A DNA stretch of 64,000 bases. Origin: Tabrizicola caldifontis. GTDB lineage: Bacteria > Pseudomonadota > Alphaproteobacteria > Rhodobacterales > Rhodobacteraceae. The notes under the pieces are model-generated. The model was given only the letters and a program-made list of their open reading frames with translations. It was not told the DNA's origin and searched no databases. Below, in pieces: positions 1 through 13,244 of this stretch. Positions within the stretch are counted from its first letter, which is position 1; each line of letters opens with the position of its first letter. The stretch lies in the NCBI RefSeq assembly GCF_004762095.1, contig NZ_SIJH01000014.1, forward strand, positions 1 to 64,000, written 5' to 3'. The translations under genes and the position numbers were made by a program.

Positions 1-2
1 GG

Positions 3-317
3 CAGGACCGCCCGCCGCACCCCTCGGTCGCCCTCACCCGCCCAAGGCGCCTGACCACCGTCGCCGCCGAACCACAGATCCTACCCCTCAACCCGATGCC
101 CGCCCAAACATTGCCAGAAACCGGTACGTCCGAGGAGGGTCTGCGGGAGGGGGCAGTCGCAAACCATGACAAAAAGCCGGTTTCCGATACACCGCCCGAG
201 GGGCGGAGATCCGCCCCCGTCGTGGTCGTGCAGGAAGTGTCGCAGAAAGATGACACTGTTGCCGAGGACCTGCCTCCGGTGCGCTTGCGGCCGCGTCGCG
301 TGATCGTCATAAGGTAG
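3..317 (+). CDS. C-terminal part of a proline-rich protein (5' end outside window)
   Basis: The reading frame is open from the left edge and ends with TAG at 315-317, so this is probably the tail of a longer gene. An internal ATG at 96 would give a 73-residue protein, but nothing marks it as a real start. The visible product is rich in Pro, Arg, Glu and Val, with no recognisable domain, and looks disordered. It ends three bases before the first GTPase gene, which suggests one transcription unit with the GTPase island. I do not recognise the protein and assign no function. Confidence 0.45.
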   Translation, partial: QDRPPHPSVALTRPRRLTTVAAEPQILPLNPMPAQTLPETGTSEEGLREGAVANHDKKPVSDTPPEGRRSAPVVVVQEVSQKDDTVAEDLPPVRLRPRRVIVIR

Positions 318-320
318 GGC

Positions 321-2555
321 ATGGCACAGGCAGACGGAGAATTGACGGTCGCGCAGCGGCTTGGTCGGCTCTTGGATCGGGGCGTGCTTCCGGCTGGCGG
401 CCCGGCGGAAGCGGCAGAGCGGCTGCTGGAACGCCTTGAACGCCCGGCGCGGGTGGCGCTGTTGGGCCTGCCCGGGTGCGGCAAGTCGTCCATTCTGAAC
501 CTGCTGACCGGCACCGTGGTCGTGCCAGAAATGCTGCGCCTCCCGACGATCATCGTGCAGCATGGCGAGGAGGAGCGGATGCTTTGCACGCTCGCCGATG
601 GCAGGACCGAGGTCGTGCCTGGCCGCGACCTGTCGCAGGTGCTGACGCTCAACCCCGCGCTCATCACGATCGAGGCCGATCTGCCGGCGCTTAAAGTGAT
701 CAGCCTGCTTGAAGTGGCCGCCGGCCCGATGGAGGCCGATCAGCGCCGTGCCGCGATCTGGGCCAGCAAACGGGCAGACATCCTGATCTGGTGCACGACC
801 TCCTACCTGCCGAAAGAACAGCAGGTGTGGGAAGGCATGCCCGACATGGTCAAGGACAACGGCTTCCTGTTCCTGACGAAGATCGATCTGCTTGGCAGCC
901 GCGAGGCCGCACAGGGCATGATCGAGCGGGTGGAGTTGCGGGCGGGGGAAGAGTTCCGCCAGGTGCTTGCGATTTCGGCCAAGCAGGCGCGCGCGGCCAT
1001 GACAGCGCCGGGAGGCCTGGACCGCGACCTGTTCCGCGACAGTGGCGCCTCTGCCGTCATCACCACGATCAAGACCCGCGTGCAGATGGCGCGGCGCGCC
1101 GACACCGACATGGCCGAGCTTCTGATCGCACGTCATGCTGCGGCAGACGGTCTTGTGACGCGGCATCCGGCTGAGGCCGGCCCCGACATCCCGCACACCT
1201 GGGAAACACGGGGCTGGACGCCGCCGCCTGACCCGGTGCCGGAGGAACCCGCGCGCGAAGCCGCTGTCCCCGCAGAGCAACGCCCGGAACCAGAGCCCGC
1301 GCCTATTCCGGAACCCGTGCCCGAGCCGTTGGCCCAACCGAAACCCGAGCTGCTGCCGGAACCAGAGCCGGAAAAGGAACCGAGCCCGGTGCCGGAGCCT
1401 GCACCAGAACCGGACCCCAGGATCTGGCAGGAACCCGTCGCAGGTCCTGTCGTTGCCCGAGACGCCGTCGCCGGGCGGCAGCCCTCTGGCGACCCGGCTG
1501 CCGGTCGCAGGCGTTTTGCCGAGCGCATCAAGCAACTGCCGATGGGGGATGATGCCGGGTCCTCCTCATCGGTGCCGTTTCGCGCAACATGGAAATCCAA
1601 GGCCGAGGCTGCCGCACCACCGTCCAGGCCCGCCCGCGAAGCCGGGCCGGAGGCTGCATCGCCTGCAGTGCCAGTGCCTGAACCCGCGGCGGGGCTTCCG
1701 CCAGAACCGGCGGTGATGAAGCGGCCCGGGCCCCGGAGTGGGCAAACCGGCGCCACGGGTGCCGACGAGGGCGGCCCGGACGATGCGGCGATCGCAGCAA
1801 TGCTGTCTGCGATTTCCGCTGCGCCCGAGGCGCCGCGCGTCCCGCGGGTTCGCCTGGATGCCGGTCTGCGTTCGATGCCAGCGGAGGCTTCTGCGCCGAT
1901 CGAACGTTTGGCGCGGTCATCGCTGTTTGGCGCGCGCAAGCCTGTGCCTGCCTCGCCGCAGGCTGCTGGCCGCCCTGCCGGCGGTGCCGCCGTTCCGGGC
2001 GAGCCGGTCACCCGGGTTCGGGGCCCCAGCCCGCGCCCTGCCGGGGAACAGCCCCGTGCCCCGATCCAGGCGCCAGAGGAATTCGCGTCGTCGCGCCCGG
2101 CCATGCCGCGCACGCCCCCCCCGGTTCCCCTCGATGCGCAGGGACAGCCCGATCCGGCCCCCGCAGAACGCCGTGCGCGCCCGCGCATCGCGCGTGTGGT
2201 GTCGGTCAGGCCGGCCCCCCCACCTGCGGCCGCCTCTGGCGCGGATCAGGACATCGTGGATGCTGCAATCTCGCTGATCATGACCCGTGCCGCCGATCTT
2301 GCGGGCTGGGTCGATCCCGACGCCAAGGTGCCGGTGGACCAGATCCTTGAGCACAGCCGCGAGACGGCAGAGAAGGTAGCCGAGATCATCGGCAGGGGCG
2401 CGTCAGAGGCTCTGAGGCGAATCAAGGCCGATCTGGGCGAGGTTCAGGATTTGATCATGCTGATGCAGCTTGAGAAGGGTCACGCGCCCGCAGACGATGC
2501 AATCACGCTGCTTCTGCAACTCAGGCGCGATCTGGAAACATTGCGCTCTATCTGA
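321..2555 (+). CDS. Dynamin-like/TRAFAC GTPase with long Pro/Glu-rich linker
   Basis: A 744-residue protein. Residues 41-190 form a GTPase domain: P-loop GLPGCGKS (49-56), a possible switch I Thr at 76, and G4 TKID (186-189). The G3 motif (DxxG) is not intact: the matching stretch reads LLEVAAG (129-135), so hydrolysis may be weak or need a partner. A WCT motif (158-160) followed by a VWEGMP stretch is shared with the small GTPase at 4793, which suggests paralogy. Residues about 300-640 are low-complexity Pro/Glu/Ala/Arg, including PEP-type repeats. The last 100 residues look helical. The start ATG follows AAGGTAGGG. It is probably co-transcribed with the preceding gene and is the first of three GTPase genes. 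The family call is by motif; the exact subfamily is unknown. Confidence 0.7.
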   Translation: MAQADGELTVAQRLGRLLDRGVLPAGGPAEAAERLLERLERPARVALLGLPGCGKSSILNLLTGTVVVPEMLRLPTIIVQHGEEERMLCTLADGRTEVVPGRDLSQVLTLNPALITIEADLPALKVISLLEVAAGPMEADQRRAAIWASKRADILIWCTTSYLPKEQQVWEGMPDMVKDNGFLFLTKIDLLGSREAAQGMIERVELRAGEEFRQVLAISAKQARAAMTAPGGLDRDLFRDSGASAVITTIKTRVQMARRADTDMAELLIARHAAADGLVTRHPAEAGPDIPHTWETRGWTPPPDPVPEEPAREAAVPAEQRPEPEPAPIPEPVPEPLAQPKPELLPEPEPEKEPSPVPEPAPEPDPRIWQEPVAGPVVARDAVAGRQPSGDPAAGRRRFAERIKQLPMGDDAGSSSSVPFRATWKSKAEAAAPPSRPAREAGPEAASPAVPVPEPAAGLPPEPAVMKRPGPRSGQTGATGADEGGPDDAAIAAMLSAISAAPEAPRVPRVRLDAGLRSMPAEASAPIERLARSSLFGARKPVPASPQAAGRPAGGAAVPGEPVTRVRGPSPRPAGEQPRAPIQAPEEFASSRPAMPRTPPPVPLDAQGQPDPAPAERRARPRIARVVSVRPAPPPAAASGADQDIVDAAISLIMTRAADLAGWVDPDAKVPVDQILEHSRETAEKVAEIIGRGASEALRRIKADLGEVQDLIMLMQLEKGHAPADDAITLLLQLRRDLETLRSI
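1228..1430 (+). repeat. Coding low-complexity Pro-Glu repeat tract
   Basis: This segment of the first GTPase gene encodes an irregular run of PEP, EPEP and PVPEP units, covering about residues 303-370 of the product. It is in frame and not a DNA-level tandem array of fixed period. Such Pro/Glu segments act as extended spacers in envelope proteins such as TonB; whether that is its role here is inference. Confidence 0.7.
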
Positions 2556-2626
2556 CACGATTATTGAGCGTAGATTCGCCAAAAACCTGCCCAATTCGGA
2601 CCACTTTCCCAACTTATGACACGATT
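2553..2626 (+). repeat. Direct repeat TGACACGATT x2 in the gap between GTPase genes
   Basis: TGACACGATT occurs at 2553-2562, overlapping the stop codon of the first GTPase gene, and again at 2617-2626, 64 bases later. The 134-base gap 2556-2689 is the only sizeable gap in this gene island. It could hold a promoter or operator for the dynamin-like gene, but I see no convincing -35/-10 pair. Confidence 0.3.
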
Positions 2627-2689
2627 GCGGGGACTTGCGCCTTGGGGTGTGACATAAATCTGGTTCAGGGCGAAGGTTGAGGGGTGATC

Positions 2690-4762
2690 ATGGGACTTGG
2701 CGCAATCGTTCAGGATGATGATCCGGGTGCCGAACCGGTTGTTCCAGCCGTTGCGGATGCGGGTTCCGGCCTGAAGCGCAGCTTCCCCGGCCTTGGCCGC
2801 ATTGCCGAGTCGATCCGGCAGTTCGAGGATGTCCTGCGCGACTTTGTCACCATGGCGGATCCGGACACATCCAAGAAAGTGACCCGCATCCTGCAGCAGG
2901 TGCGCGATGTCGAGCCGTCGGTCACGGTGATCGGGCAGATCAAGGCGGGCAAGACATCGCTGATCAACGCGATGATCGGCGCTCCGGGCCTTCTGCCTAC
3001 CGACGTGAACCCGTGGACCTCGGTTGTCACCTCGCTGCACATCAATACGCCGCCGCCGGAACTGAACGTCAGGGCGAAGTTCAAGTTCTTCGACAACGCC
3101 GAATGGGAAAGGCTGGTATCGAACGGTGGCCGGATCGGCCAGCTTGCGGCACGGGCCGGTGCGGACGAGGAGCTGGAAAAGCTTCGTCTTCAGGTCGTCG
3201 CCATGCGCGAAAAGGCGCAGGCACGGCTGGGCCGCAAGTTCGAGCTGCTTCTGGGCACCGAACATCGCTATGGCACGGTCGATGACGCGCTGCTGCGCCG
3301 TTATGTCTGTGTCGGCGACGATGATGCGGGCGGCGCCGATCAGGGCAGGTTCACCGACATCACCAAGTCGGCCGATCTGTACATGGATCGCGAGGACATT
3401 CCGATCATGCTGTGCGTGCGCGACACGCCCGGCGTGAACGACACCTTCATGATGCGCGAGCAGATCACGATCAACGCGGTGCGCGACAGCCGATCCTGTA
3501 TCGTCGTGCTGTCGGCGCACCAGGCGCTGACCACGATGGACATGGCGCTGATCCGCCTGATCGCCCATCGCCAGAGCCGCGAGATCATCATTTTCGTCAA
3601 CCGGATCGACGAACTGCCCGATCCTGCCAACCAGGTGCCGGAAATCCATCGCGCGATTCTGGAGACGCTGGAAAAGAACAACGCGCCGCAGGACATCGAC
3701 ATCATCTATGGTTCGGCCCACTGGGCCAATGCGGTGCTGGAAGGCAAGATCGACGAGATGTCCGACGACTCGACCGAGTCGGCGATCAACTGGACTCGCG
3801 CTGCCTTTGCCGAAAAGATGGGCGAATGGACGGCCGAGCAGCTTGTCTGGCATGCTTCGGGCGTGCCGGCACTGCTGGATGCGCTGGGGCAGCGGATGTA
3901 CGAAGGCCCGGTGCGCGAGGCGCTGCAGAAATCGGCCCGCCAGGCGCTGAACCTGGCGCAAAGCCTGGACGTGGTCGATCAGGTCCGCATCCTGGAATCC
4001 GACGGTCAGTTGAACCGGACCATGACGCCGGAACAGCTGGACGCCGAGCTGCGCCAGATCGAACAGGCAGCCGTCGACAAGCTGACCCACCTGACGAACA
4101 ACGTCTGCAAGGATTTCACCAACCGCATCGACCAGAGCTACGAACGCTTCCTCGACCGGGCGACGAACAGCCTGATCGAGCATCTGCAGACCCATGGCGA
4201 GGATGCGACCTGGCACTACAGCCCCCTGGGGCTGCGGATGCTACTGTCGTCCAGCTACCAGGTCGTGCTGAAGAAGATGCACGCCATCGCGGCCGAGGTG
4301 AACAACGAGACGGCGGTCAAGATCGCCGACCTTTACGGCAAGACCTTCTCGATCGTCGTCGAGGGTTTCAAGATCGAGACCCCGGTCGTGTCCTACATTC
4401 CGCCGCCGATCAACCTGGGTCAGACCATCGCGCTGGACCTTCAGGTCAGCTGGTGGAAGGGCTGGTGGCAGCGCCGCCGCGGCTACAAGGCATTTGCACA
4501 GGACTTCAACAAGCTGATCCGGGCGGAAACCGACCCGATCATCAACGACCTGAAGACGATCCAGATCGGCCTGTTCCGCGAACGCACCCAGGCGACGCTG
4601 CGCGACTTCCTGCAGGAGCAGCGCGAACTTCTGATGAGCGCTCTGGCCAGCTCGGAAATATCGATGGAAGAGATGAAGGAGCTGTTCGGCGTGAATGCCT
4701 GGGAGGACCGGCAGCAATGCCTGGCCTCTATCATCGAAGAGCTTGGCGTCTATGCCGATTGA
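2690..4762 (+). CDS. Large dynamin-like GTPase
   Basis: A 690-residue dynamin-family GTPase with all nucleotide-binding motifs: P-loop GQIKAGKT (82-89), switch I Thr within NPWTSVVT (about 108-115), G3 DTPG (245-248) and G4 NRID (304-307). About 380 residues follow, probably helical, as expected for the stalk of a bacterial dynamin-like protein. A Trp/Arg-rich patch, SWWKGWWQRRR (587-597), could be a membrane-contact loop. Dynamin-like proteins use GTP to remodel, tether or fuse membranes. ATG 2690 is preferred over GTG 2684 because GAGGGG lies at a proper distance. It sits between two smaller GTPase genes in the same direction. The family call is strong; the cellular job is unknown. Confidence 0.8.
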   Translation: MGLGAIVQDDDPGAEPVVPAVADAGSGLKRSFPGLGRIAESIRQFEDVLRDFVTMADPDTSKKVTRILQQVRDVEPSVTVIGQIKAGKTSLINAMIGAPGLLPTDVNPWTSVVTSLHINTPPPELNVRAKFKFFDNAEWERLVSNGGRIGQLAARAGADEELEKLRLQVVAMREKAQARLGRKFELLLGTEHRYGTVDDALLRRYVCVGDDDAGGADQGRFTDITKSADLYMDREDIPIMLCVRDTPGVNDTFMMREQITINAVRDSRSCIVVLSAHQALTTMDMALIRLIAHRQSREIIIFVNRIDELPDPANQVPEIHRAILETLEKNNAPQDIDIIYGSAHWANAVLEGKIDEMSDDSTESAINWTRAAFAEKMGEWTAEQLVWHASGVPALLDALGQRMYEGPVREALQKSARQALNLAQSLDVVDQVRILESDGQLNRTMTPEQLDAELRQIEQAAVDKLTHLTNNVCKDFTNRIDQSYERFLDRATNSLIEHLQTHGEDATWHYSPLGLRMLLSSSYQVVLKKMHAIAAEVNNETAVKIADLYGKTFSIVVEGFKIETPVVSYIPPPINLGQTIALDLQVSWWKGWWQRRRGYKAFAQDFNKLIRAETDPIINDLKTIQIGLFRERTQATLRDFLQEQRELLMSALASSEISMEEMKELFGVNAWEDRQQCLASIIEELGVYAD

Positions 4763-4792
4763 GGCCGGGAAGGGCAGGAAAGGATTGTACCC

Positions 4793-5752
4793 ATGCCGAT
4801 GACCCGCAAACCGCGCATCGCCATCATGGGCGAGTTCAGCTCGGGCAAGAGCACGCTTTGCAACGTGCTGATGGGCGCAAGGCCGCTGCTTGAAAAGGTC
4901 ACGGCAACGCAGCTGCCGCCGGTCTGGCTATCCTATGGGCCGGAAGACGCCTATACGATGGGGCTGGATGGCGTGGCTTATGATCTTGACCTGGCCGATC
5001 TGGAACACGTGTCGCTGGATACGACGGAACATGTCCGCATCTTCATGAAAAGCGACATCCTGCGCTATTGCGACCTGATCGACATGCCGGGGATTTCCGA
5101 CCCCTCGATGTCGCCTGAAGTGTGGGAACGGATGACCTATCTCGCTGATGGCGTCCTGTGGTGCACGCATGCGACCCAGGCTTGGCGGCAATCGGAAAGC
5201 GGTGTCTGGAACGGCTTCCCGCCCGAGATGCGGCGCAACAGCCTGCTGCTGATCACCCGTTTTGACAAGATCCACAGCGACACCGACCGCGCCAAGGTGT
5301 TGAAGCGTGTCCGGCAGGAAGTGGACGGGCTATTTGCCGATGTGTTCCCGGTTTCGCTTCTGAAGGCGATGAACGCGGGGGACGACCAGGAGAAATGGGC
5401 AGAAAGCGGGGCGGATGCATTCGCGACCGCGCTTTTCGAGATCATTCACCGCCTGATCGACGAAGGTTCCCCCGAGCCAGGACAGGAGAGGGCACCCGCA
5501 GTCCGACCCGAACCGTTCGACAGCGCCGAGGTGGGACAAAGCCTGATCGCCCGGTCGTTCGAGCGGCTGATGGCAGTGCGGAACAGGCCTGTTGTCAGGG
5601 TGATGCCGCGTCGCGTTGCCGCAGGCGAACGTCTGCTGCGCACCGAACGCCCGACGGGCGATACCGGCCCTGCCATCGTTTCCTTCTCGGATGACGACAT
5701 GTTCGCAGCGGCCGAAGCGCAGATGACGGGCCTGCGGTCGCAAGGCAAGTAG
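4793..5752 (+). CDS. Small dynamin-like/TRAFAC GTPase
   Basis: A 319-residue GTPase with P-loop GEFSSGKS (13-20), switch I Thr within KVTATQ (about 35-40), G3 DMPG (97-100) and G4 TRFD (155-158), so all core motifs are present. The WCT motif (123-125) and the following VWNGFP segment align with the first GTPase, whose G3 motif is degenerate. The two may be a functional pair. About 100 charged residues follow the G domain, with no clear stalk or membrane segment. The start ATG has AGGAAAGG upstream, 30 bases after the dynamin-like gene. Subfamily assignment is uncertain. Confidence 0.7.
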   Translation: MPMTRKPRIAIMGEFSSGKSTLCNVLMGARPLLEKVTATQLPPVWLSYGPEDAYTMGLDGVAYDLDLADLEHVSLDTTEHVRIFMKSDILRYCDLIDMPGISDPSMSPEVWERMTYLADGVLWCTHATQAWRQSESGVWNGFPPEMRRNSLLLITRFDKIHSDTDRAKVLKRVRQEVDGLFADVFPVSLLKAMNAGDDQEKWAESGADAFATALFEIIHRLIDEGSPEPGQERAPAVRPEPFDSAEVGQSLIARSFERLMAVRNRPVVRVMPRRVAAGERLLRTERPTGDTGPAIVSFSDDDMFAAAEAQMTGLRSQGK

Positions 5753-5777
5753 TGCGGCGCAAGCCGGGGGGCGCAAA

Positions 5778-6146
5778 TTGGGCGTGATCGAAAGCCTTGG
5801 CACCGTGGTCAAAGCCTTTCCCAAGGCGAGGGTGGTGGCTTTTGCCGACCTGTCGTCCAGCATGATCCTTGCCAGCCAGGGGGCAGAGGATATCACCCAG
5901 GAACATCTGGACGCCCTGTGCAAGCAGGCGCGGGCCAGCTTCGACGATCCGCTCTTCGCGCTATCGGTCGAGGCCTTTGGCGAGCCTCACGGGGCGCTGG
6001 TTGTGGGCGAAGACGGCGTTCGGGTCTTTCTGCGGTCGGAAAGCGAGCCGGCCGATGCACTGTGCTGCATCTGCGAGCATGGCATTGACCTGCCGGAATT
6101 TGTGACGAAAATCCGCGAAACGCTGGACGGGATTTCCGGCGGGTGA
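5778..6146 (+). CDS. Roadblock/LC7-like small protein
   Basis: A 122-residue protein whose pattern suggests a roadblock/LC7 fold: an AFADLSSSMILAS strand-turn-strand (about 21-33), a helix (about 40-54), then LSVEAFGEPHGALVVGEDGVRVFLRS-type strands and a C-terminal helix. In bacteria such proteins (e.g. MglB) bind and regulate small GTPases, which fits its place behind three GTPase genes. The start is TTG 5778 after GGGGGG; GTG 5784 is an alternative. The fold is inferred by eye; a profile search could overturn it. Confidence 0.5.
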   Translation: MGVIESLGTVVKAFPKARVVAFADLSSSMILASQGAEDITQEHLDALCKQARASFDDPLFALSVEAFGEPHGALVVGEDGVRVFLRSESEPADALCCICEHGIDLPEFVTKIRETLDGISGG

Positions 6147-7075
6147 CGCGCGGCACAGGCAGGGCGGGCAGGCCGTTGAACAAGGCAGCAATTCCGATCG
6201 TGGCTCGGCTGACGGCACTGCAGGCTGCGGCGCAGATCGCCCCCGGCGGTGCCAGGGTGATCGCCGTGGCGTCCGTTCCCAGCCCTATCGTGGCGCTTCT
6301 GCGCGAGGTGAACGAAACCATCCTTGGCAGGGCACTACGATTCGAATCCAGCAGCGGTGCCTCCCTGACTCTGGAAGTCGCCGGGCGTCGCGCACTTCGC
6401 CTGACCGAGGCCGTCGGTCTTGCCGGGGCTGAACGCTGTCTTGCCGCCGGTGCCCTGGAGGATGAACACAAGGACGAGCTGATCAAGCTGTTGCAGGCGC
6501 TTGCCGCGCCGCGCTGCGAGTTGCGCGTGACCAGCCTGCCCCTTGGCCCTGCCGGCGAAGGCGTGAACGTCGGCTTGCCGGTGGCCCTTCTGGCCGACCT
6601 TCTGCTGATCGATCTGAACGCCGTTCCCGGAATGGCACCGCCCGCGCCCGAGCCGGAACCAGAGCCCGTACGAGGGGGGCGCGGGCCGAAGGTCATTCCA
6701 TTGCCGCGCACTGCTGCCGAACGAAAGGCGCCGCCGGCCGCGACATGCGATCTGGCGGCTCTGGCCCGTGCAATGGGGCCTGGCCTGGTGGCCTGGTTGG
6801 TCTCTGGCGGGGTGAGCGACGGGGTGACCGAGGGGCCGGAAGAGATGGTGGCGCATCTGCAGGGCTTTCTGGAGGAGGAAGCCGAAGCCGTTGGTCGCCA
6901 GCTTGACCTGATGTCGAACCAGCCCGGCAGCACGGTCTGTTCGCTTCTTGGGGCGACCCTTGTGGACGGCCACAGCATCCTGTGCGCCCGTTCGGGCGAG
7001 GGGCTGCTGCTTGGTGTGGTCGAGGGCGATGCGACCCAGGCACTGCTGTCTGCCTGGGCCGCGGCAAAGGCCTGA
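6143..7075 (+). CDS. Protein of unknown function, last gene of the GTPase island
   Basis: A 310-residue protein starting with GTG that overlaps the previous stop (GTGA), so it is translationally coupled to the roadblock-like gene. It has two alpha/beta parts, residues 1-165 and about 200-310, joined by a PEPEPEP linker (about 170-180), the same kind of linker as in the first GTPase. The C-terminal part (STVCSLLGATLVDGHSILCA, then GEGLLLGVVEG) might be a second roadblock/profilin-like unit, but this is weak. There is no signal peptide or transmembrane segment. I do not recognise a family; a role as adaptor or regulator of the GTPases is inference. Confidence 0.55.
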   Translation: MTRGTGRAGRPLNKAAIPIVARLTALQAAAQIAPGGARVIAVASVPSPIVALLREVNETILGRALRFESSSGASLTLEVAGRRALRLTEAVGLAGAERCLAAGALEDEHKDELIKLLQALAAPRCELRVTSLPLGPAGEGVNVGLPVALLADLLLIDLNAVPGMAPPAPEPEPEPVRGGRGPKVIPLPRTAAERKAPPAATCDLAALARAMGPGLVAWLVSGGVSDGVTEGPEEMVAHLQGFLEEEAEAVGRQLDLMSNQPGSTVCSLLGATLVDGHSILCARSGEGLLLGVVEGDATQALLSAWAAAKA

Positions 7076-8071
<996 letters not shown>

Positions 8072-8161
8072 GACGTCCTCCGCACAGCGCCTGGATTGAG
8101 AATCGTCGCCTCCCCTTGCTCCGGCTGTGGAGGGGATGGCGGCGGGCGATCCGGATGCGCC

Positions 8162-8192
8162 CCTCCCTCCCCCCTTTTGTGGGGGAGGGAGG
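8162..8192 (-). repeat. Perfect 12-bp inverted repeat (hairpin) inside an operon
   Basis: CCTCCCTCCCCC (8162-8173) and its exact complement (8181-8192) flank a 7-base loop. It lies between the oxidoreductase and ABC-ATPase genes, both on the minus strand. No run of T follows in that direction, so it looks like an RNA-stabilising or partial-termination hairpin, or a dispersed GC-rich repeat, rather than a full terminator. Confidence 0.6.
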
Positions 8193-8213
8193 CGCCTTGC
8201 GGCTGGGCCGCGT

Positions 8214-9236
8214 TCACAGCCGCACCGGCTTGCCCGACCGGACGCTTTCGTCGGCGCCAAGGCAGATGGCAAGCGACTGGACGGCATCCTCCATGTGGCG
8301 CGTCAGATCCAGGTTCTCCGTGATCGCACGGGCGACAAAGGCCTGTTCGCGCTCGCACAACTCCTGATGGCCGGGCTCGTCGGCCATCGACAGGTCCTGA
8401 TCCGGCTGGCCGACGCGGTGCACGCGGATCGTCTGGGTCGCGGTGTGGGTGGCATGGTCGTCCGACCGCGCGCTTTCCGGCATCTTGATCGACACGGCAC
8501 CATTGGGGCTGACCACGTCCTTCACGAAGAACGCCGTGTCCGACATCATCGGCCCCCAGCCGGCCTCATACCAGCCGACCGAGCCGTCATCGAACAGAAC
8601 CTGGAAATGGCCGTAGTTGTACATGTCGGGCGCGATCTCGTCGGTCAGGCGCACCCCCATGCCTCGCACTTCCACGGGCTTCGCGTCGGTGATCTGGCAC
8701 ATCACGTCAACATAGTGAACGCCGCAATCGACCAGCGGGCTGGTGGTCTTCATCAGGGTCTTGTGAACCTCCCAGGTCGGGCCCTTGGACTGCTGGTTCA
8801 GGTTCAGGCGAAAGACGTAGGGTCCGCCCAGGGCGCGCGCCTCTGCGATCAGGCGCATCCATGACGGATGGTGGCGCAGGATATAACCGACGACCAGCTT
8901 CTTTCCGTTCGCCTTCGCGCAGTCCACCACCCAACGCGCGTCCTTCACGGTCGTCGCCAGCGGCTTTTCGACGAAGACATGCGCCCCGGCCTCCATCGCG
9001 GCCACGGCATAGTCGGCATGGCTGTCGGAATAGGTGGAGATGTTCACCAGATCCGGTTTCAGCCGGTTCAAGGCGGCGTGGAACTCGGGCTCGATGGCGT
9101 AGCCGTTCAGCGCCGGGTCCAGCGTCGGGGTAGAGCGGTTGACCAGCCCCACCAGTTGAAAGGCCGGGTTGCGGTGGTAGGCCAGCGCATGGCTGCGGCC
9201 CATGGTGCCAAGACCGGCGACCATCACTTTGATCAT
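8214..9236 (-). CDS. Gfo/Idh/MocA family oxidoreductase
   Basis: A 340-residue NAD(P)-dependent sugar oxidoreductase. The N-terminal Rossmann fold has AGLGTMG (7-13), and EKP (about 91-93, in [10 protein letters not shown]) is the family's substrate/cofactor-site motif; the C-terminal half is the mixed-sheet substrate domain. It overlaps the permease stop by ATGA, so it is coupled to the sugar importer. In a MurNAc/GlcNAc locus the substrate could be an oxidised or anhydro amino sugar, but the sequence does not fix it. The family call is firm; the reaction is unknown. Confidence 0.85.
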
Positions 9237-10069
9237 TTGACGGCTCCTGCGGTGATCCCGCGGATCAGCTGCCGCGAGAAGATGAGGTAGAGGACAAGGA
9301 CGGGAACGATAGCCAGCGACAGCGCGGCAAGGACGGCATTCCAGTTGGTGACGAACTGCCCGATGAAGACCTGTGCGCCAAGCGTGACGGTCTTGGTCTG
9401 TTCGGCCGGAGCCAGGATCAGCGGGAACCAGAGGTCATTCCAGATCGGGATCATGGTAAAGACCGCAACGGTTGCCATGGCCGGCCGCACCAGCGGCAGG
9501 ACGAGGGTAAAGAAGATGCGGTATTCCGACAGCCCATCGATGCGCCCTGCATCCTTCAGATCCTTCGAGACCGACTTCATGAACTCGGACAGGATGAAGA
9601 TGGCCAGCGGCAGCCCCTGCGCCGTGTAGACCAGGATGAGCGCAGTCAGTGTGTTCACCAGGCCTGTGGCCACCATGATTTCCAGGATTGCCACCGTGCC
9701 CAGACGGATCGGGATCATGATGCCGAGGGCAAGGTAAAGGCCCATCAGGGTGTTTCCCTTGAAGCGGTATTCGCTCAATGCGAAGGCCGCCATGGCGCCG
9801 AACAGAAGGACGAAGAACAGGCTGGCCACGGTCACGATCAGGCTGTTCTGGAAGTAAAGCAGGAAATCGCCCTGCTTCAGCACCGTCTGATAGCCCACCA
9901 GGTCGAAGTTGGCTGGCATCGGCAGGGCTAGCGGATCGGCAAAGATGGCCTTGCGGCTCTTGAAGCTGTTGATGACGATGACGAAGACCGGAAACAGCGC
10001 GATCAGCGTATAGGTCAGAAGGACCGCGTGGGCTGCAATCGTTCGGCCAAGTGAGGTGCGCGCGCTCAT
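9233..10069 (-). CDS. Sugar ABC transporter permease (MalG/UgpE type)
   Basis: A 278-residue inner-membrane permease with about six hydrophobic segments, starting at LLTYTLIALFPVFVIVI. The EAA-type loop that contacts the ATPase is at about residues 168-190 (KDLKDAGRIDGLSEYRIFF). The start at 10069 overlaps the stop of the partner permease by one base (TGATG), fixing the N-terminus. It pairs with 10069-10989 to form the membrane channel. CUT1-type sugar importer by layout. Confidence 0.9.
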   Translation of the reverse strand: MSARTSLGRTIAAHAVLLTYTLIALFPVFVIVINSFKSRKAIFADPLALPMPANFDLVGYQTVLKQGDFLLYFQNSLIVTVASLFFVLLFGAMAAFALSEYRFKGNTLMGLYLALGIMIPIRLGTVAILEIMVATGLVNTLTALILVYTAQGLPLAIFILSEFMKSVSKDLKDAGRIDGLSEYRIFFTLVLPLVRPAMATVAVFTMIPIWNDLWFPLILAPAEQTKTVTLGAQVFIGQFVTNWNAVLAALSLAIVPVLVLYLIFSRQLIRGITAGAVK

Positions 10070-10989
10070 CAGAACTGATACCTCCGCAGGCGGGTCTGGA
10101 TGCCGAACAGGTAAAGGCAGACGCCGATCAGGATGATGCCGAACATCGAACCCGCGATGGCCGAGCCCATGTAGGGATCGCCCAGTTGCAGCTGGAAGCC
10201 GAAGAAGGTGCGATAAAGGAAGGTTCCGAGGATATCGGTCGAGAAGTTGGGCCCCGCAAGTGCCCCCTGCGCCACATAGATCAGGTCGAAGGCGTTGAAG
10301 TTGCCAACAAAAGTCAGGATCGAGATGATGCCGATACTGGGCAGGATCAGCGGCAGCTTGATCTTCCAGAACTGCGACCAGCCGGTGATCCCGTCCATCT
10401 CGGCGGCCTCGATCACCTCGTCGGGGATCGACAGAAGAGCGGCATAGATCAGCATCATCGGAATGCCGACGAATTGCCAGACCGACACCAGCGCCAAGGT
10501 GGTCAGCGCGGTTTCCTCCTTGCCCAGCCAGGGCTGGAACAGCGATTTCAGCCCCACAAGGTCCAGAAGGCCGGGGGCGATGCCCCAGATCGGCGACAGG
10601 ATCAGCTTCCAGACGAAGCCGACGATGACGAAGGAAAGGATCGTGGGGATGAAGATCGCCGTGCGGTAGAACGCCGCCATCCGCAGGCGCGGGGTCGAAA
10701 GGATCGCCGCCAGTGCGATGCCGATCGGATTCTGGACCAGCATGTGGATCACGAAGAACCAGGTGTTGTTGGCCAGCGCGTTCCAGAAGGCGTCGGACCA
10801 CAGCGCGTCGCCGAACAGGCGGGCAAAGTTCGCCAGCCCGACAAAGACCCGCTCGCCAGCCGCGTCCTTGTTGAACAGCGACTGCGCCAGGGTTCCGAAC
10901 AGGGGAATGATCATCAGGCTGGTGTAGACCAGCACGGCCGGGGCCAGAAACACGGCAATGTGCCAGCGCACGGGCTTACGCGAAGCCAT
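10069..10989 (-). CDS. Sugar ABC transporter permease (MalF/UgpA type)
   Basis: A 306-residue inner-membrane permease. The first membrane segment is IAVFLAPAVLVYTSLMIIP (about 11-29), about six segments in all, and the EAA loop is VIEAAEMDGITGWSQFWKI (about 191-209). It lies 79 bases after the binding-protein gene and overlaps the second permease by one base. Together with 9233-10069, 11069-12316 and 7076-8071 it makes a complete CUT1 importer, probably for an N-acetylated amino sugar or small muropeptide sugar given the catabolic genes next door. Confidence 0.9.
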   Translation of the reverse strand: MASRKPVRWHIAVFLAPAVLVYTSLMIIPLFGTLAQSLFNKDAAGERVFVGLANFARLFGDALWSDAFWNALANNTWFFVIHMLVQNPIGIALAAILSTPRLRMAAFYRTAIFIPTILSFVIVGFVWKLILSPIWGIAPGLLDLVGLKSLFQPWLGKEETALTTLALVSVWQFVGIPMMLIYAALLSIPDEVIEAAEMDGITGWSQFWKIKLPLILPSIGIISILTFVGNFNAFDLIYVAQGALAGPNFSTDILGTFLYRTFFGFQLQLGDPYMGSAIAGSMFGIILIGVCLYLFGIQTRLRRYQF

Positions 10990-11068
10990 GTTCGTTCCCT
11001 TTCATGCTGGTAAGGATTTTCAGGCAGGGTGCGGGGGGCGCAAGGCCCCCCGTCCCGAAGGATCTGGC

Positions 11069-12316
11069 CTATTTCTGCGGCTCATACCACGAAGCCAGAC
11101 CGGCTTGCAGGCGCGCGGCCGCAGCTTCCGGCGTCTCCGCACCACGGATCACGTTGGCCGCGGCATTCCAGGTCTCGTTCTCCAGGTTCGGCGTGCCGCG
11201 CGAAAGGATCTGGTAGGTGGACCGGATCGTGGACTGGCACTTCTGCCGCCAGGACACGAATTCCTGCGCCAGCGGGTCCGACATTTCGACCGGGGTCGAG
11301 TTCAGGCTGAAGAAGCCGGGCAGGGCATTGGCATAAAGCGCCGCGAATTCGGGCGAACCCACCCATTCCAGGAACACCTTGGCGGCCTCTGCGTTCGGCG
11401 ACTTCGCATTCAGGCCGATGGCGATGTCGGTGTGGTCGGAGATGTAGCAGGTATCGCCCGCAGCGCCCACCGGCGGCGGGAAGGCGCCCATCTTGAAATC
11501 GGCCTGGGCGTTGAAGCCCGCAATCTCCCACGAACCGGCCGGGTAGATCGCGGCGCGGCCGAGCGTGAAGAGGTTCTGGCTGTCCGGGTAGGTCTGGGCC
11601 TCGAAGCCGTCGCCCAGATAGTCCTTCCAGCGCGCCAGTTCGCGGAACGGCGCAACCCAAGGCTCGTCGGTCAGCTTCTGTTCGCCCTTGATCAGCGCCA
11701 GACGGCCCTCCTCGCCCTTCCAGTAGTTCGGCCCGATGTTCTGATAGCCCATCGTGGCGGCTTCCCACTGGTCGTTGGTGCCCATCGCCATCGGGATATA
11801 GGTGCCGTCTTCCTTGATCTTGTCGAGCACGGCGAAGAACTCGTCCCGGGTGGTCGGAACCGACAGGCCCAGTTGCTCGAAGGCATCGGCGTTGTAGATG
11901 AACCCGTGGATCACCGAGGCCATAGGCACGCAGAAGGTTGCGCTGCCGTCGTCGGTCTGCCAGGCCGACTTCGCAACCGGAGAGAAGTTCGCCATCGCTG
12001 CCAGATCCGAAAGGTCGGCCAGGTGGCCCTGGTTGTAAAGCTCGAGGCTGGCGTCGAACGGTCGGCAGGTGATCAGGTCACCGGCCGATCCCGCGGCAAG
12101 CTTGGAGTTCAGCACCGCATTGTATTCCGCCGGGGCCGAGGGGGCGAAAACCACCTTGATGTCGGGATGCTGCGCCTCGAAGGCCGGGATGATCGTGTCC
12201 TGCCAGATGGTCAGGTCATCGTTGCGCCAGCTTTCGATGGTCAGCGTGGTTTCGGCCAGCGCCGGACCGGCAAGCAGCGTGCTGGTCAGAAGCGCGAGGC
12301 GGATTTTTCTGGTCAT
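11069..12316 (-). CDS. Sugar ABC transporter periplasmic binding protein
   Basis: A 415-residue CUT1 solute-binding protein. Signal peptide at residues 1-21 (KIRLALLTSTLLAGPALAE, cut after ALA). The mature part starts TTLTIESWRNDD, typical of the MalE/UgpB family, with the NDQWEAATMGYQNI ligand-pocket region in the middle. It lies between murQ-like (upstream) and the two permease genes. The predicted ligand is GlcNAc, MurNAc or a disaccharide of these, from context only. Confidence 0.9.
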   Translation of the reverse strand: MTRKIRLALLTSTLLAGPALAETTLTIESWRNDDLTIWQDTIIPAFEAQHPDIKVVFAPSAPAEYNAVLNSKLAAGSAGDLITCRPFDASLELYNQGHLADLSDLAAMANFSPVAKSAWQTDDGSATFCVPMASVIHGFIYNADAFEQLGLSVPTTRDEFFAVLDKIKEDGTYIPMAMGTNDQWEAATMGYQNIGPNYWKGEEGRLALIKGEQKLTDEPWVAPFRELARWKDYLGDGFEAQTYPDSQNLFTLGRAAIYPAGSWEIAGFNAQADFKMGAFPPPVGAAGDTCYISDHTDIAIGLNAKSPNAEAAKVFLEWVGSPEFAALYANALPGFFSLNSTPVEMSDPLAQEFVSWRQKCQSTIRSTYQILSRGTPNLENETWNAAANVIRGAETPEAAAARLQAGLASWYEPQK

Positions 12317-12359
12317 TCTCGGTCTCCCTGTTGGGGCATATCGCCCGGTGGTCTTCGTG

Positions 12360-13244
12360 TCAGGTGTTCATCGCAGCGGCCAGATGGCCGCCCGCGCTTG
12401 CCAGCCGCGCCAGCGCAGCCTCGGGCGACGCGCCTCGTGCGACCAGCACGGCGGCCTTTACCGCCCCCCCCGTCCGATTCAGGGCGACGCGGGCGGCTGC
12501 GGTCTCTACCCCCGCCACATGGGCGACGATCCGTGCCGCACGGTCGCGGAGCTTGGCATTGTCGGCGATCACGTTCACCATCATGCCATCATGGATATGC
12601 CCCAGACGCACGCCTGTCAGCACCGAGATGAGGTTCAGCGCCACCTTCTGCGCCGTTGCAGCGCCCAGACGGGTAGACCCGGCCACGATCTCGGCCCCCG
12701 TGTCCAGCAGAACCGGCACATCGGCGGCTGTAAGCAGGGCCGAGCCTGCGACATTGGCGATGCCGATGATCCTGGCCCCCGCCGCCGCGGCCCCCTCGGC
12801 AACTTTCAGCGTATAGGGCGTCGTGCCCGAGGCCGAGACAGTTATCACCACATCGCCGGGCCGAAGCCCGGCGCGGGCAAGGTCGGCAGCGGCAAGGGCC
12901 GGGTTGTCCTCGACCCCGCCGGTCATCTTGAGCAGTGCATCTGCCCCTCCTGCAAACAGCATCGGCGTCCGCTCGGTGGGGATGCCAAAGGTGCCCAGAA
13001 GTTCCAGGCAGTCGGCCAGCGCCATAAGGCCGGAGGATCCGGCGCCGGCATAGGCCAGCTTGCCGCCGTTGCGCAGCGCCTCGGCCGCAAGGTCGGCAGC
13101 CCTTTCCAGCGCAGGAAGCGCTGGGCGCACTGCCGCAAGGGCGCCCAGCTGGGCGTCAAGCGCGCGTGACAATACCTGATCCGCCGGGGCCAGATGCAGG
13201 CCTTGCGCCAGTGGATGCAGTGCCTCGGTCGAATGGTCGGCCAT
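12360..13244 (-). CDS. murQ: N-acetylmuramic acid 6-phosphate etherase (MurQ-like)
   Basis: A 294-residue SIS-domain protein. MurQ cleaves the lactyl ether of MurNAc-6-phosphate to GlcNAc-6-phosphate and D-lactate. Matching features: the sugar-phosphate site GAGSSG (67-72) and SASGTTPY (137-144), candidate catalytic Glu 91 (GIPTERT) and Glu 112 (GGVEDN), and the EIVAGSTRL...TAQK..LN block. It is divergent from the classic enzyme, where GAGTSGRLG is usual and here GAGSSGLMA is found. It is the first gene of the minus-strand operon, facing the kinase gene across a shared regulatory region. A related phosphosugar lyase or isomerase remains possible. Confidence 0.75.
   Translation of the reverse strand: MADHSTEALHPLAQGLHLAPADQVLSRALDAQLGALAAVRPALPALERAADLAAEALRNGGKLAYAGAGSSGLMALADCLELLGTFGIPTERTPMLFAGGADALLKMTGGVEDNPALAAADLARAGLRPGDVVITVSASGTTPYTLKVAEGAAAAGARIIGIANVAGSALLTAADVPVLLDTGAEIVAGSTRLGAATAQKVALNLISVLTGVRLGHIHDGMMVNVIADNAKLRDRAARIVAHVAGVETAAARVALNRTGGAVKAAVLVARGASPEAALARLASAGGHLAAAMNT

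Follow-up and report, generated by a model that had tools for sequence, protein, structure and literature searches.

A dynamin-like GTPase pair encoded with a predicted roadblock protein and Ser/Thr phosphorylation genes in an eight-gene unit of relatives of Tabrizicola

The threonine phosphorylation pathway of the type VI secretion system (T6SS), PpkA-PppA-Fha, joins a kinase, a PP2C-type phosphatase and an FHA protein, and in the eukaryotic Rag-Ragulator system, roadblock proteins serve as GTPase platforms at a membrane. To our knowledge, the on-off control of bacterial dynamins is still poorly understood, and we know of no roadblock protein recognized as a regulator of dynamins. A bipartite MglB/RomY GTPase-activating protein (GAP) complex has been described (PMC9481161), the Streptomyces conservons (CvnA-D) and Rup systems encode a kinase, a roadblock protein, a GTPase and a protein of unknown function together (PMC4316618), and most bacterial dynamin-like proteins (DLPs) are said to stand side by side in an operon (PMC6104087). 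In the current study, we analyzed a stretch of 64,000 nucleotides (the window) at the start of a contig, here called C6, in a genome of Tabrizicola caldifontis. Its positions 321-7075 encode a P-loop protein (A), two dynamin-type GTPases (B and C), a protein with a predicted roadblock/LC7 fold (D) and a further protein (E). What a sequence-only reading had taken for an island of five genes is the 3′ part of an eight-gene unit, K-F-P-A-B-C-D-E, which is found in many relatives of Rhodobacter and is headed by genes for a Ser/Thr kinase (K), an FHA protein (F) and a PP2C-type phosphatase (P). On balance, we incline toward the reading that an envelope-sensing kinase-FHA-PP2C switch controls the dynamin pair, with the roadblock proteins as GTPase regulators.

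All five open reading frames (ORFs) claimed by the sequence-only reading at 321-7075 were found at the coordinates given and on the same (forward) strand. The comparison covered 80 loci, the top 80 of 546 listed relatives of B in the genome collection and hence the nearest ones, chosen by similarity to B alone; the closest named relatives of B belong to Tabrizicola and its close kin. The complete series KFPABCDE occurs in order in 39 of the 80 named loci, and ABCDE is unbroken in 65, with B followed directly by C in each. Of the other 15 loci, 11 come within 250 bases of the locus end on the side of the missing genes, and the remaining four exceptions have B in two pieces (L165; labels of this kind denote loci, and those beginning with G denote genomes), A and B in one frame (L171), C in two frames (L188) or no E that was found (L197). 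The single 1523-aa frame that spans A and B in L171, at 5289-9860 of a metagenome-assembled genome, is possibly a natural fusion or the result of a lost stop codon. Neighboring genes of the unit overlap or lie close together (D and E of the window share 4 bases), except at the A-B junction, where a gap of 78-178 bases is present in 60 of the 65 loci. In genera other than Tabrizicola, a Ser/Thr kinase gene stands ahead of F, as at L067, where a kinase (Pkinase, 4.4e-32), an FHA protein (2.4e-7) and a PP2C phosphatase (1.8e-9) are followed by A, B and C; full units were also found in our sample of the family at L066, L068, L072, L073, L077, L090 and other loci. A 94.6-kb plasmid of Leisingera caerulea likewise carries a complete K-F-P-A-B-C-D-E, in which A, D and E are annotated as hypothetical proteins.

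Rearranged layouts also occur, in which the set stays together wholly or for the most part. The plasmid locus of Leisingera sp. S132 (L227) has B-C-D-E and, beyond it on the opposite strand, A, P, F and a kinase, and L094 reads B-C-D-E-B′-A′-K-F-P. In genome G003, D-E and A-P-F-K lie within 19 kb of each other (L230), with B-C and another copy each of B and A located elsewhere. In loci without annotation, genes were called with a custom ORF picker, whose starts may be off and which can miss short genes or lose them to overlap filters.

Only the 3′ part of the unit is visible in the window because the contig begins inside an upstream gene. The ORF at 3-317 (forward strand), originally listed as a separate small gene, instead represents the final 104 codons of a gene for a PP2C-type Ser/Thr phosphatase (P) that is open from the contig edge; its product ends in ...RPRRVIVIR, similar to the ...RPRRVIVVK of P in L134, and the P proteins of relatives match PP2C models. 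The F gene of the same genome (L107, 9037-9717), in turn, is truncated by the end of contig C3 at position 159718. Given that F is cut at the end of C3 and P at the start of C6, the two contigs are very probably adjacent, and the gap between them would hold the remainder of F and the greater part of P. A search of this genome with a relative's P as the query returned no match. Since K, F and P head the unit, the half that is missing from the window is a phosphorylation switch.

Among 149 sampled genomes of the family, we found B in 36, D in 28 and F (at an E value of 1e-15) in 28; in the genome of the window, the end of contig C3 truncates F. B is present in all 28 of the D genomes (Fisher p 2e-23, ancestry ignored) and, with the overlap matched by eye, in 26 of the 28 F genomes. 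From the listed coordinates, again by eye, D lies <2 kb from B in 25 of 28 genomes; D and B are on different contigs in G024 and G061, and in G003, B-C lie 3 Mb from D-E. The co-occurrence proposed from the sequence thus extends across the family, and the genes are not, as a rule, scattered in relatives, G003 being the exception. Because ABCDE keeps its order in 65 of 80 loci picked by B alone, and because every genome with D also has B, the set is not a product of chance. The distances of the proteins correlate at 0.84-0.97 over 52 loci, but we set these correlations aside because common ancestry confounds them. At L231 (6236-9371), K-F-P were observed near a contig end in a genome that is 83% complete and in which the search for B gave no match.

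Within the genus, B is present in 30 of 32 genomes, one of the two misses being a genome that is 59% complete and the other an assembly in about 630 contigs. In a class-level sample, B was found at an E value of 1e-20 in 2 of 337 genomes, namely, that of the window and another from the same family; at most three candidates were scored per genome, and absence from this sample is therefore weak evidence. Among 72,556 plasmid records, 18 carry B (E 1e-10); phage records gave no match to it. These figures bear on the idea of a defense function, in which the locus would work against phages or as an abortive system triggered by stress, with a dynamin-like protein as effector, much as in LeoABC or kinase-based defense. 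Weak matches to PADLOC models speak for this idea, with B matching LeoA at 36 bits (residues 53-100) and 22 bits (residues 407-569) and LeoBC at 20 bits (residues 79-507), C matching LeoBC at 23.5 bits, and K of L177 matching Mad6 at 156 bits and PD-T4-6 at 146 bits over the kinase domain. However, the scores of B and C are low (the NCBIfam LeoA model gave 11.8 bits against a cut-off of 325), and the K matches fall on a kinase domain that is common to many kinases. Given also a locus that nearly the whole genus carries and that phage records lack, we consider a role in defense very unlikely.

The suggestion that B and C are dynamin-like is borne out by Pfam, in which both match Dynamin_N over the curated cut-off (7.8e-11 for B and 1.6e-7 for C). 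B (692 aa; 2684-4762, forward strand) carries the motifs GQIKAGKT (G1), DTPG (G3) and NRID (G4), and C, a small dynamin-type GTPase (319 aa; 4793-5752, forward strand), carries GEFSSGKS, DMPG and TRFD at the same three places. Counted over the proteins of the 80-locus set that are long enough, G1, G3 and G4 are kept in every B protein (76 of 76) and every C protein (77 of 77). A profile of B matches the solved DLPs 5owv and 2j68, the best-scoring stretches lying in the N-terminal GTPase part. Toward the other end, a WW-x-x-W motif is present in 76 of 76 B proteins; in the window protein it stands near residue 590, in the Trp/Arg-rich WWKGWWQRRR, a position that presumably corresponds roughly to the paddle of the Nostoc protein. 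We regard this motif as a candidate membrane contact.

The designation “three GTPases” holds for B and C but fits A less well. A (744 aa; 321-2555, forward strand) has a G1 motif (GLPGCGKS) at residue 49 and a G4 motif (TKID) at residue 186, and its best Pfam match, MMR_HSR1, is below the cut-off (0.0025). The P-loop is found in 70 of 72 A proteins and a G4-like [NT][KR]xD in 57 of 72, whereas DxxG (G3) occurs within residues 71-150 in only 6 of 72 and is absent from the expected place in the A of the window. A Pro/Ala-rich linker (residues 286-640; 41% P+A) separates the GTPase part of the window protein from its end. These motifs suggest that A is probably a degenerate GTPase, that is, a GTP-binding but hydrolysis-poor adaptor. 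Given how rarely G3 is present in A, the locus is better described as encoding two dynamin-type GTPases and a probably degenerate adaptor. None of the matches listed for A, B or C is to a Ras or MglA model; they are instead to Dynamin_N, MMR_HSR1, Era-like and similar models.

D (122 aa; 5778-6146, forward strand, with a TTG start) had been guessed to be a roadblock protein, and structure prediction points the same way. The AlphaFold2 model, built on 18 sequences (pLDDT 83.9, pTM 0.76), has the alpha-beta-beta-alpha-beta-beta-beta-alpha order of the roadblock fold plus one extra short helix. In a Foldseek search of the PDB with this model, the 50 matches listed of 1226 are, by their titles, of the roadblock, MglB or Ragulator type, with a best E value of 1.1e-6 and query TM-scores of 0.62-0.78. 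They include archaeal and Streptomyces roadblock proteins, MglB alone or with MglA (the MglB entry 6izw at 5.7e-6), Ragulator or its subcomplexes, and entries 3t12 and 1j3w; two others, 5x6u and 5x6v, are titled only as a human heteropentameric and a human heteroheptameric complex. By its predicted structure, then, D has a roadblock/LC7 fold. The Pfam roadblock model matched 0 of 18 members of the D family at an E value of 0.1, and D therefore represents a diverged branch of the fold.

E (310 aa; 6143-7075, forward strand) is modeled (AlphaFold2, 64 sequences; pLDDT 88.1, pTM 0.61) as two folded parts joined by a Pro-rich linker. Residues 204-309 are predicted to form a helix, a strand, a helix, three strands and a helix, and the 50 Foldseek matches listed for E are mostly Ragulator, Rag, roadblock and dynein or axoneme entries, along with a few unrelated ones (7q3e and 5eve). 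We therefore call E roadblock-like with low confidence, on the basis of the model. Neither D nor E had a match over the cut-off among curated families, and searches of PDB sequences with their profiles gave nothing below an E value of 0.4 for D or 0.047 for E, none of the matches being sensible.

The operon kinases that we scanned (those of L067, L072, L066 and L177) all match Pkinase. HRD-type and DFG motifs are each present in 45 of 46 K proteins, and 42 of the 46 contain a strongly hydrophobic segment of 19 residues, which lies after residue 300 in 41 of these. The segment is likely to be a membrane anchor, with an extracytoplasmic part beyond it; comparable hydrophobicity is found in none of the F, P, B, C or D proteins, in 2 of 75 A proteins and in 21 of 74 E proteins. 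In the K of L177, there is also a sub-threshold PDZ match in the C-terminal half. The same-genus loci L134-L140 read F-P-A-B-C-D-E in 7 of 7 cases, with the kinase absent from the locus. The window's genome encodes three K-like kinases (on C7, C52 and C1), all outside the unit. In a FastTree tree, which carries no support values, those of C7 and C52 fall among the operon kinases on long branches, and that of C1 stands apart. We take the C7 kinase as the first candidate partner because, at 736 aa, it is the only one of the three with the long kinase-segment-extension build and because its profile score (621 bits) is the best. Separately, a gene for a PBP_like_2-OmpA fusion protein, possibly an envelope sensor, was seen 3′ of E in L066 (13606-15240), L093 (11044-12627) and L182 (14526-16160); in L093, it is present even though D-E stand away from B.

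Our preferred reading is based on the gene set, its order and linkage, the motifs, the predicted fold of D and the architecture of the kinase; from these we infer who phosphorylates whom, which GTPase D binds and what the output at the membrane would be. K would sense the cell envelope and phosphorylate a target, for which F itself and the linker of A are the likeliest choices; P would take the phosphate off again. F would read the phospho-threonine and gather the GTPases at the membrane. There, B (large) and C (small) would act as a heterotypic dynamin-like pair that assembles on the membrane and reshapes or tethers it, with A as a GTP-binding, probably hydrolysis-poor adaptor. The MglB-like D, with E as a possible second subunit, would bind a GTPase domain as a GAP or as an assembly platform, and together they would set the timing of coat formation or disassembly.

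Several observations weigh against this reading. D was not found by a single-sequence search in 8 of the 36 B genomes (profiles later recovered it in G054, at locus L089, and in G060, at locus L080), and F was not found at 1e-15 in 10 of the 36. B-C pairs that lack D, E, K, F and P in the stretches analyzed occur at L097, L098, L099, L100, L101, L103, L104 and L229, sometimes two in a row; these look like a sister lineage, and they imply that the regulators are not needed in every relative. G146 carries K-F-P without a match to B, L197 reads KFPABCD with no E found despite 8.5 kb beyond it, and at L210, the 9 kb upstream of ABCDE contain none of K, F and P. The kinase is unlinked in the same-genus loci, and as the C7 and C52 kinases both fall among the operon kinases, the partner is not settled. 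Finally, the best Foldseek E value for E is weak (0.017), and a comparison of the D and E profiles gave no alignment (probability 0.3%). An alternative suggested by some of these same facts (the unlinked kinase of Tabrizicola, the K-F-P of G146 and the B-C pairs standing alone) is that the kinase-FHA-PP2C set and the GTPase genes form two independent modules, placed together for transcriptional convenience. Against this, nearly all F genomes also carry B, and the rearranged loci keep the two halves near each other, G003 being a partial exception; we consider two independent modules distinctly unlikely.

The flanking genes bear on another alternative, in which the locus is a polarity or positioning module: D and E, working with A or C in the manner of MglA/MglB, would mark a pole or division site, and B would be the effector. 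In Tabrizicola, such a module might serve the flagellum. Besides the MglB-like fold predicted for D, this alternative draws on the presence of a motB-like gene right after E in 11 of the 80 loci, which are of the Tabrizicola type in the examples (MotB_plug 3.1e-20 in L146), and by eye the next genes on the same strand resemble flgE, flgK, flgL and flgI (e.g., in L146 and L149-L151). Other loci, however, have other flanks, including a GAPDH-like gene (by eye) upstream in 27 of them. In the window, E is followed not by flagellar genes but, again by eye, by an ABC sugar-transport cassette on the reverse strand (7076-12316), comprising an ATPase, an oxidoreductase-like protein, two permeases and a binding protein. 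Moreover, flagellin was found in 127 of the 149 family genomes, and 4 of the 36 B genomes are among the 20 negatives that were listed (2 negatives are unlisted), so that no special tie of B to the flagellum is apparent. The GTPases, too, match dynamin-type models. Taking these points together, we regard a polarity module as unlikely. The least probable of the alternatives, and in our view a highly unlikely one, is a specialized membrane task, such as the formation of intracytoplasmic membranes or vesicles tied to photosynthesis. Reaction-centre genes are indeed present in the window's genome and in 18 of the 36 sampled genomes with B, half of them, but they are also present in 43 of the 113 other genomes, and the association is not significant (Fisher p 0.24, ancestry ignored).

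As noted above, the A-B junction is the one place where the genes of the unit stand apart. In the window, this intergenic stretch (2556-2683, forward strand) contains a 21-base core (2598-2618, forward strand) that is identical in the A-B gap of many loci of the genus (50 of 233 loci, several of which are the same place). The loci of the Yoonia type have a different conserved stretch in the gap. The core of the genus is possibly an internal promoter or regulatory site. GANTC sites, which had been suggested by the genus alignment, occur in the gap in 29 of 74 loci, fewer than the 33.9 that letter shuffling predicts, and were dropped. A search of positions 1-13000 of the window with Rfam returned nothing at the gathering threshold.

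The families encoded here are known ones, occurring in a combination for which we found no description in the open-licence literature. In the open-licence part of PMC, we found no roadblock regulator of dynamins and no paper that joins a bacterial dynamin with roadblock, FHA and PP2C proteins, which is weak evidence of absence. With a kinase and a phosphatase, together with a phospho-reader and a roadblock protein, encoded beside a dynamin-like pair, the question of how bacterial dynamins are switched becomes testable in cultured strains such as those of Tabrizicola and Yoonia, neither of which we know to be pathogenic. Should a dynamin-type GTPase prove to be the target of D, roadblock proteins would have a kind of client new to their family. 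A bolder and more doubtful proposal, which we put forward tentatively, is that D and E in tandem form a Ragulator-like platform controlling dynamin-family GTPases in a phosphorylation-gated machine. Were this platform to exist, it would link two worlds of GTPase control and provide a tractable bacterial model of switch-controlled membrane remodeling.

How, then, does the unit compare with described systems? As with MglB of the MglA/MglB system (Myxococcus and Thermus), D is predicted to have the MglB fold and is encoded beside GTPases. However, the neighboring GTPases here are of the dynamin type, with no Ras-like MglA among them, and D lacks a Pfam roadblock match. By analogy, D and E could parallel the MglB/RomY GAP. 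The conservons differ in their kinase, which is the histidine kinase CvnA, whereas that of the present unit is a Ser/Thr kinase (Pkinase); the word dynamin is absent from the main text of the conservon paper (PMC4316618). B and C share with the paired DLPs (Cj-DLP1/2, DynA/B, LeoABC and IniA) the placement of dynamin-type genes side by side, although C is only about 320 aa long, and the available portion of PMC6104087 names no roadblock, FHA or PP2C partner for those pairs. With LeoABC in particular, there is no strong match to LeoA or LeoBC (20-36 bits for B and C). The structural neighbors listed for the model of E include LAMTOR and Rag entries, which recalls the Rag-Ragulator system; the GTPases here belong to another family. 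With the T6SS pathway, lastly, the unit shares the three-part logic of PpkA, PppA and Fha, which here stands beside dynamin-like GTPases.

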